A DNA stretch of 64,000 nucleotides from assembly GCF_001981305.1 (NCBI RefSeq), contig NZ_MSCW01000007.1, positions 496,001-560,000 on the forward strand. The letters run 5' to 3'. The position numbers and the translations under genes were made by a program. Below the pieces are notes generated by a model. It was given only the letters and a program-made list of their open reading frames with translations, was not told where the DNA came from and ran no database searches. Source of the stretch: Marinobacter lutaoensis. GTDB lineage: Bacteria > Pseudomonadota > Gammaproteobacteria > Pseudomonadales > Oleiphilaceae. This document shows positions 6,993 to 64,000 of this stretch, in pieces; within the stretch, counting starts at the first letter, position 1, and each line of letters starts with the position of its first letter.

Positions 6993-6999
6993 GGTCACA

Positions 7000-7178
7000 A
7001 CTTCCTGGGCTGTTCGCGATGGTCGGATACGTCCTCGAGCCGATGCGCACTACCCAGGTGGCTACTTCAGGGCATTGTGAGCACGTCCCCGACGGGGAAA
7101 GCCTAATATGTCACAGCGGCCACCAACCTTGAACCTTGGGTTCAAGGGCCACATCCGATAACGGCAGCCCGGGAAGCT
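7000..7178 (+). ncRNA. ssrS: 6S RNA
   Basis: Regulatory RNA that mimics an open promoter and sequesters sigma-70 RNA polymerase. The ends pair (CTTCCTGGGCTG at 7001 with CAGCCCGGGAAG at 7165), forming the closing stem. The 3' half contains the conserved block CCTTGAACCTTGGGTTCAAGG, seen here as CCTTGAACC and GGGTTCAAGGG around 7128-7148, nearly as in E. coli. Its position between zapA and the 5-formyl-THF cyclo-ligase gene is diagnostic. Exact ends are estimated. Confidence 0.9.
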
Positions 7179-7183
7179 TTACC

Positions 7184-59843: not shown

Positions 59844-60122
59844 ATGAGTGTCTTGAAACTGTTCGTCCACGACCATGGCATCAAGGGAGACCAATCGTTG
59901 CTGAAAACGATCACCTTTGCCATTACCCACTTTACCGTCGCGTTCACCGTCGCCTACGTGCTGACCGGGGACATCATCATCGGCAGCTTGATTGCGATGG
60001 TCGAGCCGTCCATCAACACTGTGGCCTACTTCTTCCACGAGAAGATATGGGCCCGCTACCAGCAAAAAGCAAGGCAACGGGCCATTACCGTTTCTTCAAC
60101 CGCTTCCGCCAGCCACGGTTGA
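59844..60122 (+). CDS. DUF2061 membrane protein
   Basis: A 92-aa protein with two helices (TFAITHFTVAFTVAYVL and GSLIAMVEPSINTVAYF) and the DUF2061 ending FFHEKIWARY. The family is small and of unknown function, often in marine bacteria. ATG 59844 follows GGGGGGA. It diverges from dps. Confidence 0.82.
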   Translation: MSVLKLFVHDHGIKGDQSLLKTITFAITHFTVAFTVAYVLTGDIIIGSLIAMVEPSINTVAYFFHEKIWARYQQKARQRAITVSSTASASHG

Positions 60123-60242
60123 CCCCGCCCGGGCCACCGTGGCCCTTCCCTTCCTTGTCCGCCCCCCGGCGCGACAAGTCACCGAAAATCGCCTACCCTA
60201 AACGGCTGACCCCACCTCAGCCCTGATTGGAGAAATAGGCGC

Positions 60243-60914
60243 ATGTCCCAATACTGGCCCGAGTTCTTGACCATCGCCGTTGCCCACCTGCTGGCGGTTG
60301 CCAGCCCCGGACCGGATTTCGCGGTGGTGCTGCGCCAAGCCCTGTGCCAGAGCCGGCGCAACGCTTGGCTGACGGCACTGGGCGTGGGCACCGGTATTCT
60401 GGTGCATGTGGCCTATTCACTGCTGGGGATCGGGCTGCTGATCCAGCAGTCCCTCGTTCTGTTCAACGTCCTGAAAGTGGTCGGCGCACTGTACCTGCTG
60501 TGGATTGCGTTTCAGTGCCTGCGGGCACGGGCCGGCGCCCTGGAAGTGGTGATGGAATCGCAACGGGAACAGGCCCCGGGCGCCGCCTTCCGACTCGGGT
60601 TTCTCACCAACGCCCTTAACCCGAAAGCCACTCTGTTCTTCGTGGCCCTATTCTCCGTGGTCATCAGCCCCGGCACACCGGTGGCCGTCCAGGCCGGTTA
60701 CGGTCTATACATGGCCCTTGCCACCGCGACCTGGTTCACCCTGGTGGCGGTGTTCTTCACCCTGCCCCGGGTTCGTCGGGCCTTCGCCCGCTTCGGGCAC
60801 TGGCTGGACCGCCTGATGGGCGGCATCCTGCTCCTGCTGGCGGGCGAGCTGCTGCTGTCTACAGTGAGCGGATCAACGCCTCTGTCTGCTCCCAGCCCAG
60901 GCACGGGTCGGTAA
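60243..60914 (+). CDS. LysE/RhtB family exporter
   Basis: A 223-aa membrane protein with six helices, likely exporting an amino acid or a metabolite. Family motifs are LAVASPGPDFAVVLRQAL at the N-terminus and GFLTNALNPKATLFFVALF. GGAGAAAT precedes the ATG. Its 3' end overlaps the DAHP synthase gene tail-to-tail by 56 bases. Confidence 0.9.
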   Translation: MSQYWPEFLTIAVAHLLAVASPGPDFAVVLRQALCQSRRNAWLTALGVGTGILVHVAYSLLGIGLLIQQSLVLFNVLKVVGALYLLWIAFQCLRARAGALEVVMESQREQAPGAAFRLGFLTNALNPKATLFFVALFSVVISPGTPVAVQAGYGLYMALATATWFTLVAVFFTLPRVRRAFARFGHWLDRLMGGILLLLAGELLLSTVSGSTPLSAPSPGTGR

Positions 60915-61911
60915 GCGAACAGCCGTAGATCAGGTCATCACCGTCGTCCTGGCGCCCCGGCACCAGGAAACTCTCCAGCATGAGCGCCCGGATGTGGTCG
61001 TTTCCGGCCCGTTGCTGCGCCATCACCTCCCGGGCGATCTCCACCTGACGCTCCGCCTGCTTACGGGCGTTGTCGTGGCTACAGTCCACCATCACCGCCG
61101 TGGACAACCCGGCCTCGGCGAGGCGGCGGACCGCCGCGGCAATACTGGCGGCATCGTAGTTGGTCAGCCCTCGGCCGCCCCGGAGCACCAAGTGGGTGTC
61201 GCGATTGCCTCGGGTGGACACCATCACCGGCAGGCCGGTGGCGGAAACGCCCATGTGATGATGGGGGTGGGCCGCGGATTTCATGGCGTTGATCGCCACC
61301 TCGATGCCGCCGTCCGTCCCGTTCTTGAAGCCCACGGGCATCGGCAGCCCGCTGACCATTTCCCGGTGCACCTGGGACTCGGTGGTGCGGGCGCCGATGG
61401 CGGTCCAGCTCACCAGATCGCCTAGATAGTCCATGGCGAACGGACTCAGCGCCTCGGTGGCCAGGGGCAGACCGAGAGAGGCCAACGCCAGCAGCAGGCG
61501 CCGGGACCGGACCAGCCCCTGGTGCAGGTCCCCCCGACCGGTGCGCTCGGGGTCGTACAGAAGCCCTTTCCAGCCCACCGTGGTGCGCGGCTTTTCCAGA
61601 TATGCCCGCATCACCAGAAGATAGCGGTCGCTGACCTCGTCGGACAGCGCCTTAAGCCGGTGGGCATAGTCCAGTGCCGCCACCTCATCGTGAATGGAGC
61701 AGGGCCCGAGGACGATCAGGGTGCGAGGGTCCTCGCCGCGCAGAATCGAGCGTATCGCCTGGCGGTGCCCCGCGATCTCGGCCAGGAGGGCATCATCGGC
61801 CGGAAACCGACCCTTGAGTTCCGCAGGCGTTGGCAGCGCCAGTTCCTGTCGGTGGCCGGCGGCTTCGGCAACGGCCCGTTCCAGAGTGTCGGTATTCAGT
61901 GGCATGTTCAT
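60859..61911 (-). CDS. 3-deoxy-7-phosphoheptulonate (DAHP) synthase, class I
   Basis: First enzyme of aromatic amino-acid synthesis, condensing phosphoenolpyruvate and erythrose 4-phosphate; 350 aa as in AroF/G/H. Motifs are LIVLGPCSIHD, GWKGLLYDPE, VGFKNGTDGG and VMVDCSHDNARKQ. The metal-binding Cys, His, Glu and Asp positions appear intact. ATG 61911 has GGGAA upstream; ATG 61905 is close by. A leader peptide ORF with an aromatic run and a terminator precede it, so transcription attenuation is likely. The allosteric effector cannot be told from sequence. Confidence 0.95.
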   Translation of the reverse strand: MNMPLNTDTLERAVAEAAGHRQELALPTPAELKGRFPADDALLAEIAGHRQAIRSILRGEDPRTLIVLGPCSIHDEVAALDYAHRLKALSDEVSDRYLLVMRAYLEKPRTTVGWKGLLYDPERTGRGDLHQGLVRSRRLLLALASLGLPLATEALSPFAMDYLGDLVSWTAIGARTTESQVHREMVSGLPMPVGFKNGTDGGIEVAINAMKSAAHPHHHMGVSATGLPVMVSTRGNRDTHLVLRGGRGLTNYDAASIAAAVRRLAEAGLSTAVMVDCSHDNARKQAERQVEIAREVMAQQRAGNDHIRALMLESFLVPGRQDDGDDLIYGCSLTDPCLGWEQTEALIRSL

Positions 61912-61940
61912 CGCGGTGTTCCCGTTTCCCTGTGTCAGAA

Positions 61941-61984
61941 TCAAAAAAGCCCCGGCTGGGTTGGCTACCAGTCGGGGCTTTTTC
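61941..61984 (-). terminator. Attenuator terminator upstream of DAHP synthase
   Basis: AAAAAGCCCCG (61944-61954) pairs with CGGGGCTTTTT (61973-61983), with an inner CTGG/CCAG pairing. On the minus strand the stem is followed by a U tract and lies 30 bases before the synthase start, after the leader peptide. Confidence 0.8.
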
Positions 61985-61993
61985 GAGTCCGGT

Positions 61994-62021
61994 GGCAGCC
62001 TGGGTGAACTGCCGGGCTGCC
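61994..62021 (-). other. Pre-terminator hairpin in the aromatic leader
   Basis: GGCAGCC (61994-62000) and GGCTGCC (62015-62021) can pair, forming a stem just upstream of the terminator. It may act as the pause or alternative structure in attenuation; a nearby AGCCCGG on the minus strand could also pair with the terminator 3' arm. Confidence 0.5.
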
Positions 62022-62049
62022 TTCCTCGTAAACGTTTTGGATCAGTATC

Positions 62050-62184
62050 CTATGGGCGGCCCGGGCTCTGGCTAAAGTAAAAGCCATAACCAAACCACCA
62101 AAAGAACACAGCAGCGACCGCTTTCGGTTCAAGGCCAAAAGCTTGCAGAAGATTGAATTGACAGGTCGCGTTTCTGATGTTCAT
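62050..62184 (-). CDS. Aromatic-rich leader peptide (attenuator) of the DAHP synthase gene
   Basis: A 44-codon ORF from ATG 62184 to TAG at 62050. Residues 27-37 read FFWWFGYGFYF: five Phe, two Trp and two Tyr in eleven codons. It ends 66 bases before the intrinsic terminator and 138 bases before the synthase start. This fits a ribosome-mediated attenuator in which stalling on Phe, Trp or Tyr codons permits read-through. Upstream, TATAGT lies so close to the ATG that the transcript may be leaderless. Function is inferred from composition and architecture. Confidence 0.75.
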   Translation of the reverse strand: MNIRNATCQFNLLQAFGLEPKAVAAVFFWWFGYGFYFSQSPGRP

Positions 62185-62267
62185 GCTGTGCACTATATAC
62201 CTCCGGTTTCCGCCTTGGCAACCCGAATGTCGCTTTTTTAGCCTGACCCGCCACCGATGGAGTAACC

Positions 62268-63068
62268 ATGGCCCGTCATCCGGCATCCGCAACCACCTGG
62301 CTCCTGCTTGTTGTTGCGCTGGCCACCCTGGCTCTGGGGCTGGCGTCCCCCGCGCCGGCCCTCGCCGACACCACCACCCGCACCTTCACCCTGCAGGAAC
62401 GTCCCGCCAGCGACGTGGCAACCCAGGTCCGGGCGCTGTATCCGGACGCCCGGGTCACGCCCCACGGTCAGTCCCTGATCGTCCGGGCCAGCCGCCGGGA
62501 GCTGGAGGAAATCGCCACCCTGGTGCGCTCCATCGATGTGGCACCGGCCCAGCTGCGCATCACCCTGCGAACCCGAGACCTCATCGGCGGCGGCCGATCC
62601 GGCGCGGGCCTGTCCGGCGGCAACGGCCAGGTCGCCGCCCAGGCGGAGCGCAAGGTGATCAGCACCCGCAGTGGACAGCAGCGGAGCCTGGTGGTGCAGG
62701 ACGGACAAACCGCCCATATCAGCTCCGGGCAAATCCGGACCCTGCCGGTGGCCGTCCGTGCCGGCCGCAATCCGGCGGCGGTCCTGGCTCAGGTCAAGAC
62801 CCGCAGCGGTTTTCTGGTCACGCCTCAGGTGATCTCGGACCAAGCCGTGGAGCTGTCCATTGTGTCCTTCGAGGAAGACCCGGCCAGCCTGGAGGGCTAC
62901 GAAACCGAAGCCCTGGTGACCCTGCGGCGGGTGCAGCCTGGCCAATGGATTACCCTGGGCGGCGTCGCCACCAGCGAGGAGCGCCAGAACCAGGGTCTGG
63001 TCTACCAGGTGAACAGCAGTCGCAGCCGCGACCGCCAGGTGGAGGTGAAGGTCGAACTGCTGCCCTGA
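62268..63068 (+). CDS. Short secretin-like periplasmic protein
   Basis: A 266-aa exported protein with a signal peptide ending near APALA (residue 33). Residues 40-110 resemble the N0/N1 (secretin_N) modules of secretins (ASDVATQVRALYPDARV and ELEEIATLVRSIDV). The remainder resembles the beta-rich secretin domain but is far shorter and lacks an obvious gate. It may be an accessory or truncated form. No type II or type IV pilus genes are nearby. ATG 62268 has GATGGAG upstream. Confidence 0.7.
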   Translation: MARHPASATTWLLLVVALATLALGLASPAPALADTTTRTFTLQERPASDVATQVRALYPDARVTPHGQSLIVRASRRELEEIATLVRSIDVAPAQLRITLRTRDLIGGGRSGAGLSGGNGQVAAQAERKVISTRSGQQRSLVVQDGQTAHISSGQIRTLPVAVRAGRNPAAVLAQVKTRSGFLVTPQVISDQAVELSIVSFEEDPASLEGYETEALVTLRRVQPGQWITLGGVATSEERQNQGLVYQVNSSRSRDRQVEVKVELLP

Positions 63069-63070
63069 GA

Positions 63071-63562
63071 TCAGACCGGGCGCCGGGCCAGCAGCACTCG
63101 CTTGGCCTCGTTGACCTGGGCGGCCAGGTAGTCGTTACCGCCCCGGTCCGGATGCAGTTTCTGCATCAGCCGGCGGTGCGCTGCGATCACTTCCTCCCGG
63201 GAGCAGCCGGGGGCCACGCCCAGCACCTCGCACGCTTCCCGCTCCGACATGCCATCGGCCGCCCTCCGCAGCCGCTCGTCGGGGCCGTTCCGGTCGCGCT
63301 TGACGCCTGACACCAGGCGCGTCAGGATGGGCAGGTGCCGCAGCAGTGCCGGGACTTTGCGCAGCAGGGGAATCACCGCCGCAACCGCCGCTGTGATCAG
63401 GTGTATCCGCCCGGTCAGCACCAGGACCAGCAACACCGCCCCGGCAACGCCGAGCACCAATGTCCACGAGGCTCGCTTTTTCGCCTCGGGCGCGAGCGAT
63501 GCCCAGTAGCGCAGCGCGAAAAAGACCAGGCCGGCCAGCACCAGGCCCAAAATCCATTGCAT
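63071..63562 (-). CDS. Membrane-anchored DnaJ-domain protein
   Basis: A 163-aa protein with two N-terminal hydrophobic segments (ILGLVLAGLVFFALRYW and LVLGVAGAVLLVLVLTG) and a C-terminal J domain (about residues 105-163). The HPD motif is present in MQKLHPDRGGNDY, so it should stimulate a DnaK-type chaperone at the membrane. ATG 63562 is chosen; an upstream extension to 63616 has no support. Its stop is two bases beyond that of the secretin-like gene. Confidence 0.85.
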   Translation of the reverse strand: MQWILGLVLAGLVFFALRYWASLAPEAKKRASWTLVLGVAGAVLLVLVLTGRIHLITAAVAAVIPLLRKVPALLRHLPILTRLVSGVKRDRNGPDERLRRAADGMSEREACEVLGVAPGCSREEVIAAHRRLMQKLHPDRGGNDYLAAQVNEAKRVLLARRPV

Positions 63563-63753
63563 TGATGCCTCCTCGATTGGCTTGTATCTTTGAGGGTTCG
63601 ACCGGCCCCTCGTCATCCGCCCACGGAAAACGGTGACAGCCGTCGCCCTATTTTTATAGGATGCTATGTTTCAATCGGACGACTGGCCGTCCGAACTGCG
63701 TCACGGTTTGTTAACCAGATTCACACAGACTCACAGCCATAGCCCATGGACGT

Positions 63754-63772
63754 CCGTATTCCCCGAATACGG
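63754..63772. promoter_or_regulatory. Palindromic operator upstream of the RND adaptor
   Basis: CCGTATTC-CCC-GAATACGG is a perfect inverted repeat with eight-base arms, 49 bases before the adaptor start. A TetR-type efflux repressor could bind it. No regulator gene is visible in the window. Confidence 0.45.
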
Positions 63773-63820
63773 CATGGTGCCGGCTAATACCAAATGGATA
63801 CAGATTCCAGGATCTGAACT

Positions 63821-64000
63821 ATGCGCACAGCTTCCCGCTTCATTATTGTGATTCTCTTCCTCGGCGTCGTCCTCGGCGGTATCTTCGGGTACAAGTTCTA
63901 CCAGTTCGGACAACTGAAGCAGCAGCTGTCCCAGCCCCAGCCACCCGCGCAAATCTCCGCCACCGTGGCCCGGGCCGAGCACTGGACCCCCACCATCAAG
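63821..64000 (+). CDS. RND efflux periplasmic adaptor (membrane fusion protein), N-terminus only
   Basis: Sixty codons before the window ends. The product starts with a membrane-anchor helix (FIIVILFLGVVLGGIFGY), then a short linker and PPAQISATVARAEHW, the opening of the first beta-barrel strand in MFP/HlyD-type adaptors. It should be followed outside the window by an RND pump gene. ATG 63821 is the only reasonable start. Confidence 0.75.
   Translation, partial: MRTASRFIIVILFLGVVLGGIFGYKFYQFGQLKQQLSQPQPPAQISATVARAEHWTPTIK

Follow-up and report, generated by a model that had tools for sequence, protein, structure and literature searches.

Our analysis strongly supports the view that a DAHP synthase gene of Marinobacter lutaoensis is controlled by a ribosome-mediated transcription attenuator, the control codons of which specify Phe, Trp and Tyr together. 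We consider this reading very probable; under it, one predicted RNA switch would let the entry step of the shikimate pathway respond to its three end products together. In the window (the whole stretch of 64 kb of DNA that was analysed) the elements are located on the minus strand in the order promoter, leader ORF, hairpin, intrinsic terminator and DAHP synthase gene, which starts at position 61911. The leader ORF has its ATG at 62184 and a TAG at 62052–62050, and its 44 codons are translated to MNIRNATCQFNLLQAFGLEPKAVAAVFFWWFGYGFYFSQSPGRP. The downstream gene was identified as DAHP synthase by TIGR00034 (aroFGH; 422.9 bits, cut-off 173.2) and PF00793 (252.3 bits). A 44-codon ORF with the run FFWWFGYGFYF in front of a DAHP synthase gene, as claimed by the original prediction, is borne out by the coordinates, the translation and these two protein models. 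The hairpin (62021–61994, arms GGCAGCC at 62021–62015 and GGCTGCC at 62000–61994) and the terminator (61978–61949, followed by T6) were also found where they had been predicted. The features are as follows:

62192–62221, minus strand: sigma-70-type promoter TTGCCA-18-TATAGT, from a consensus scan, spacing conserved
62050–62184, minus strand: leader ORF, 44 codons plus TAG, probably leaderless; leader found in 79 of 79 readable loci
62074–62106, minus strand: control codons 27–37, FFWWFGYGFYF
62090–62099, minus strand: segment 0, GGUGGUUUGG, W W F G codons; predicted partner segment 1
62055–62064, minus strand: segment 1, CCGGGCCGCC, end of the ORF; predicted partner 0 or 2
62012–62021, minus strand: segment 2, GGCAGCCCGG; predicted partner 1 or 3
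61989–62000, minus strand: segment 3, GGCUGCCACCGG; predicted partner 2 (off) or 4a (antiterminator)
61963–61978, minus strand: segment 4a, GCCCCGACUGGUAGCC, terminator 5′ arm and loop; predicted partner 3 or 4b
61943–61959, minus strand: segment 4b, CCAGCCGGGGC, terminator 3′ arm with U6 tract
60859–61911, minus strand: DAHP synthase gene (aroFGH type), the regulated gene in the proposed model

The 274-nt leader region is more stable than 200 of 200 dinucleotide shuffles (z = −4.95). A search of the window against Rfam revealed no amino-acid leader, T-box or riboswitch at the gathering score, and Thr_leader reached 16.6 bits, below 55. The sole match was a 6S RNA (RF00013) at 6999–7179 with 90.5 bits. 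No plasmid copy of the element was found. Just past the leader promoter a divergent gene starts (62268–63068), which is secretin-domain-like by eye.

For the comparison among relatives, the best 80 of 573 related loci were kept, nearly all of them from Marinobacter. Together with the window, 78 of these 80 named loci gave 79 readable loci; L054 and L109 end at contig ends. The 79 do not include L002–L030, possibly duplicates of named species; every one of these 29 has the leader too. A leader was found in each of the 79 readable loci (from the best 80 of 573), F, W and Y all occur within its last 22 residues in 79 of 79, and an intrinsic terminator between leader and gene could be aligned across all of them. 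Conservation of the aromatic run and the terminator had been named as a check on the prediction, and among these loci the synthase was not found without the aromatic codons or the terminator. The RNA segments are nearly invariant and the spacers between them vary. Conservation extends to the choice of codons: the leader has TTT or TAT at its Phe and Tyr positions 32, 34, 36 and 38 in 284 of 286 cases (TTT 70/71 at position 32, 67/68 at 36 and 74/74 at 38; TAT 73/73 at 34), compared to 28% TTT among Phe codons and 21% TAT among Tyr codons in the synthase genes. This bias is absent at position 29 (TTT 37/68) and partial at position 37 (TAT 71/78). Three loci, L100, L102 and L104, appeared to be leader-less on 339 nt of upstream sequence, which was rejected, since the leader lies further upstream behind a second uORF.

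The six segments are predicted to form an arrangement like that of the his operon. From the sequence features, their conservation and the register of the predicted switch we infer how stalling and read-through would be coupled. RNA polymerase would begin on the leader ATG or no more than about 2 nt away from it, and translation would take place on a leaderless mRNA. When all three aminoacyl-tRNAs are plentiful, the ribosome would reach the stop codon and cover segment 1, so that 2:3 and the terminator 4a:4b could form and transcription would end. Shortage of any one of the aromatic aminoacyl-tRNAs would make the ribosome stall in FFWWFGYGFYF, covering segment 0 and not segment 1. Segment 1 would then pair with segment 2, segment 3 would be left to capture 4a ahead of the synthesis of 4b, and the polymerase would read into the synthase gene. 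In the case of no translation, 0:1, 2:3 and 4a:4b would form, making off the default. Energies of −14.6 (0:1), −16.0 (2:3) and −19.2 kcal/mol (4a:4b) were calculated for the duplexes of the off state, and of −17.8 (1:2) and −16.6 kcal/mol (3:4a) for those of the on state.

Competing structures had been named as something to look for, and folding predicts a mutually exclusive antiterminator in register with the aromatic codons. In a folding walk the ribosome was placed at each codon, covering 12 nt from the start of the A-site codon, and the downstream RNA was folded as far as the point where the 3′ arm of the terminator begins. For the window, the antiterminator probability was 0.88–0.99 at A-site codons 26–37, at most 0.47 upstream of codon 26, and 0 from codon 38, the first codon past the aromatic run, to the stop. 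Across the 79 loci (from the best 80 of 573) 621 of 677 aromatic codons gave a value above 0.5; past the last aromatic codon this fell to 94 of 618, and at the stop codons to 0 of 79. By residue, values above 0.5 were obtained at 312/346 F, 149/155 W and 160/176 Y codons; since the on-window covers most codons of each kind, shortage of any one amino acid should act. Codons for all three residues in every locus and an antiterminator predicted in register with them argue for the tri-aromatic control region that had been claimed, and the wider claim of an aromatic attenuator of DAHP synthase likewise withstood these comparisons of leader and predicted switch register.

The model also has its limits. 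Well before the run, 914 of 1874 codons (79 loci) also gave antiterminator values above 0.5, so that there is no clean off state in the model for a ribosome that stalls early. Mean values at aromatic codons were low in three of the 79 loci (L035 0.25, L036 0.50, L041 0.43). At equilibrium, full-length window RNA forms the terminator with a probability of 0.99 whatever the ribosome position; the on state must therefore be kinetic if the switch works as drawn.

In the alignment, off-state pairs are formed in 97.1% of cells versus 25.8–53.7% with the partners slid by 1–3 columns, and on-state pairs in 92.5% versus 9.3–46.6%. At three off-state pairs both sides have changed (GC to AU in 6 loci, CG to UA in 3). 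On-state covariation was no better than in shuffles (the score was reached by 152 of 500); the segments hardly vary. Hairpin 2:3, which is located between the control-codon hairpin and the terminator, is paired in 99.8% of cells over the 79 sequences. In the his attenuator a stalled ribosome shifts the pairings by one. The accessible part of one report describes an extra hairpin in this attenuator between the control-codon hairpin and the terminator, which is thought to lower basal read-through (PMC1183508). As far as this description goes, the extra hairpin before the terminator of the Salmonella and E. coli his attenuator has its counterpart here in 2:3. Unlike his, the element described here has control codons for three amino acids, precedes a different gene, has no Shine-Dalgarno sequence at the usual place and has a leader of 44 codons.

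A consensus scan of positions 60000–64000 gave TTGCCA-18-TATAGT as the single sigma-70-type promoter on the minus strand, with 7 nt between its −10 and the leader ATG. The distance between a −10-like hexamer and the ATG is 7 nt in 75 of the 79 loci (from the best 80 of 573) and 6 nt in three; for the remaining locus, L106, the second of two adjacent ATGs had been taken as start. Since transcription usually starts 6–8 nt after the −10, a spacing of 6–7 nt predicts a 5′ UTR of 0–2 nt. The leader mRNA is probably leaderless, judged from this spacing, and the idea that a 5′ UTR is missing gains comparative support from a distance that is nearly fixed (6–7 nt in 78/79). Among the more divergent loci considered below, the distance is 7 nt in L145, L148, L160, L165 and L179 and 6 nt in L147, L158 and L169; L146, L153 and L156 failed the spacing rule. 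A GGAGG located 15 nt before the leader ATG in the window, within the promoter spacer, counts against the proposed model. A precedent for such a start is trpL of Sinorhizobium meliloti (rnTrpL/peTrpL), for which the accessible part of the source states that the attenuator RNA begins with the ATG of the leader ORF (PMC7298713). As described there, trpL differs in that it responds to Trp only, belongs to trpE(G) of an alphaproteobacterium, and has an RNA and a peptide that act in trans. The Marinobacter leader would add a probable conserved leaderless attenuator in gammaproteobacteria.

No Shine-Dalgarno sequence is present at the usual distance upstream of the leader ATG in the window, as would be expected if the ORF had arisen by chance, stayed untranslated and merely preceded an ordinary, unconditional terminator. 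This is extremely unlikely given that the frame with its aromatic codons is kept in 79/79 loci and that the promoter is found at a nearly fixed distance from the ATG. Such a run is also rare: seven or more F, W or Y residues occur in 5 of 101,828 stop-free 11-residue stretches (six frames, 64 kb), and all five belong to FFWWFGYGFYF. Furthermore, 22 of 24 aligned loci of the P15 type (see below) have a Shine-Dalgarno-like motif upstream of an in-frame ATG, either the first or an internal one.

The end of the leader peptide is well conserved (GYGFYFSQxPGRP, and GYWFS in the P15 type), which would also suit a nascent peptide that arrests the ribosome on free aromatic amino acid in a TnaC-like manner, instead of stalling on uncharged tRNA. 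However, conservation past the run coincides with RNA segment 1, and the number of aromatic residues differs among leaders (GYGYF, GYGFYF, WWFFGYG). Several separate aromatic codons fall within one on-window, which fits tRNA supply, and for a ribosome held at the stop codon the off state is predicted throughout the 79 loci. We consider arrest by the peptide very unlikely.

The aromatic leader before DAHP synthase is not confined to Marinobacter. A covariance model built from 32 sequences matched 35 of 390 genomes of the order; in a class sample of 369 genomes it matched the genome of the window and four weak places. Nineteen divergent or weak loci (L126–L144, leaving out six further weak places of the model) were inspected, and in 13 of them the match precedes a DAHP synthase gene and comes with an aromatic leader. 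The other six (L138 and L140–L144, including the four class places) are terminators away from DAHP synthase with no aromatic leader and were dropped. Sixty upstream regions were taken from the DAHP synthases ranking next after Marinobacter, with about 51–68% identity; they were chosen by hand out of 65 non-Marinobacter places, G222 to G229, ranked by score. An aromatic leader was found in 56 of the 60, a somewhat flattering figure, since the fetched f26 places L197, L199 and L201 have no leader and the 60 do not include five others of f26 that rank within this stretch. All 56 leaders contain F, W and Y, and 52 are followed by a terminator. They span six families of the order (f1, f7, f20, f36, f38, f43), so that the tri-aromatic leader recurs in six families of one bacterial order; the four upstreams with no leader (L196, L197, L199, L201) are from f6 and f26. 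Among 19 lower-scoring DAHP synthases (about 50–54% identity), two passed the leader rule, one of these with a terminator. This set includes the second DAHP synthase of the window's genome (L205, G000:C21:356466-357665), for which the rule gave no aromatic leader.

Part of these divergent loci are known under another name. For Pseudomonas-type and related loci, RF00627 (P15) gave 87–126 bits in 8 of 18 divergent loci tested, above its gathering score of 70, and about 65 bits in three more; the window reached 10.7 bits and is not a P15 match. In 11 of 12 loci examined the match starts at the aromatic codons and stops at the terminator. Based on this sequence correspondence, Pseudomonas ‘sRNA P15’ can be reinterpreted as a DAHP synthase attenuator, which gives it a concrete proposed function. 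The accessible parts of earlier reports list P15 among the sRNAs found by Livny et al. (PMC2375449) and suggest that it may be a riboswitch owing to its synteny with a TPP riboswitch (PMC2527527). In our literature search, which covered few subscription journals, we recognised no paper that ties P15, or the Marinobacter or Pseudomonas leader, to DAHP synthase. RF00627 differs from the Marinobacter type in its annotation as an sRNA and in that most P15-type leaders have the Shine-Dalgarno-like motif mentioned above (22/24).

A P15-type alignment was made of 24 loci, after four loci lacking the exact motif, four more chosen by hand and duplicate sequences had been removed. Off-state pairs are formed in 89.5% of its cells and on-state pairs in 86.3%. 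Covariation score and the number of cells changed on both sides exceeded 500 of 500 shuffles for both states; the number of pairs changed on both sides and of further pair types did not exceed all shuffles, for cells with changes on both sides a further comparison was made, and two of the slid on-state versions surpass the true one in the number of such cells. A generic score for sequestration of the terminator 5′ arm over divergent loci was too crude, and specific pairs were used instead. The probability of pairing 1:2 exceeded 0.5 for 124 of the 148 aromatic codons, compared to 13 of 144 codons after them, 0 of 24 stop codons and 94 of 282 codons before them. The antiterminator 3:4a, drawn from L163, exceeded 0.5 at only 6 of 153 aromatic codons, with a mean of 0.20 at aromatic codons versus 0.06 at the stop. 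Use of the same antiterminator by the P15 type and the Marinobacter type is only half supported by these predictions.

The entry in Rfam raises the question whether the element is mainly a stand-alone, trans-acting small RNA, to which ORF and adjacent gene are incidental. Besides the filing of the Pseudomonas version as sRNA P15, its place among the genes downregulated in phage-infected Pseudomonas aeruginosa, as given in the accessible part of one study (PMC10215021), is in agreement with this, as is a stretch near the start of the Marinobacter leader (TGT CAA TTG AAT GTT) that is kept almost letter for letter. Nevertheless, a mainly stand-alone function is quite unlikely. The aromatic run is kept as protein in the 79 Marinobacter-type loci and in 56 of the 60 divergent upstreams, and the predicted switch register fits the aromatic codons. 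The leader always lies before DAHP synthase; these loci were found via that gene, but the independent covariance-model search also led to DAHP synthase with an aromatic leader in 13 of the 19 loci inspected. A promoter between terminator and gene was not seen in the consensus scan.

Attenuators that sense more than one amino acid are known from the thr and ilv operons. The statement in the original prediction that classic attenuators sense one amino acid does not hold in view of these operons and of aroR of Corynebacterium glutamicum, a leader peptide with FYF before the DAHP synthase gene aroF, which was reported to respond to limitation of Phe but not of Tyr (PMC4046766, PMC11802643). It shares the aromatic leader and the type of gene with the element described here, but is from an Actinobacterium and has FYF only, with no Trp mentioned in the accessible parts of these reports. 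uORFC-13-1 is a predicted uORF with one or more Phe codons beside a terminator before aroF (PMC8632094). According to the accessible part of the source it differs in occurring in Acholeplasma and environmental sequences (24 representatives), in having Phe only and an RBS, and in being predicted only. For E. coli aroF attenuation was hypothesised, and a structured 5′ UTR was predicted for Shewanella aroF (PMC2659441, PMC8632094); both are described there, in the parts accessible to us, as sensing tyrosyl-tRNA, and it is by this description only that we set them apart. The mode of action is that of known attenuators; new are the three-amino-acid control region, the probable leaderless start and a sequence family of its own. 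The six-segment arrangement, the link to P15 and the second uORF of relatives go beyond the original prediction.

Leader codons 8–12 (62163–62149) are almost fixed across Marinobacter as TGT CAA TTG AAT GTT. The leader has CAA in 74/74 and GTT in 65/65 cases, compared to shares of 17% and 16% among the respective synonymous codons within the synthase genes. The window departs from this sequence with TTC at codon 10 and CTT at codon 12. The attenuator model leaves this conservation unexplained; it would be explained, nearly codon for codon, by a released RNA or peptide that acts in trans. This leads to an extended scheme that we put forward tentatively and hold to be rather unlikely as a whole: the tri-aromatic attenuator is present in at least six families, its terminated product is P15, the released RNA or peptide also acts in trans, and in many relatives a second uORF (TGGCGATTTAGC, WRFS) is a second sensing stage after read-through.

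This second uORF, an ORF with WRF or GRF between terminator and synthase gene, was found by a simple rule in 37 of the 60 fetched loci, and at least five more loci have a variant missed by the rule (L149, L155, L161, L176, L204). TGGCGATTTAGC is identical in 27 of the 37 loci, and TGGCGATTT, which encodes W R F using CGA, is present in 36. The 12-mer occurs once each in 7 of 10 genomes searched, always at this place, and a reversed control pattern once each in two genomes; the 12-mer is absent from the window's genome. Among the Marinobacter-type loci, L100, L102 and L104 keep the second uORF, and a motif search of the others, window included, gave none. As a nearly invariant sequence it is a further element that needs explanation. 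The hexamer TTTAGC (Phe-Ser), which ends the aromatic run of the first leader both in the window (62076–62071) and in the P15 type, recurs in the second uORF of many loci. In several Halomonas-type loci the stop codon of the second uORF lies within a few nt of the synthase start.
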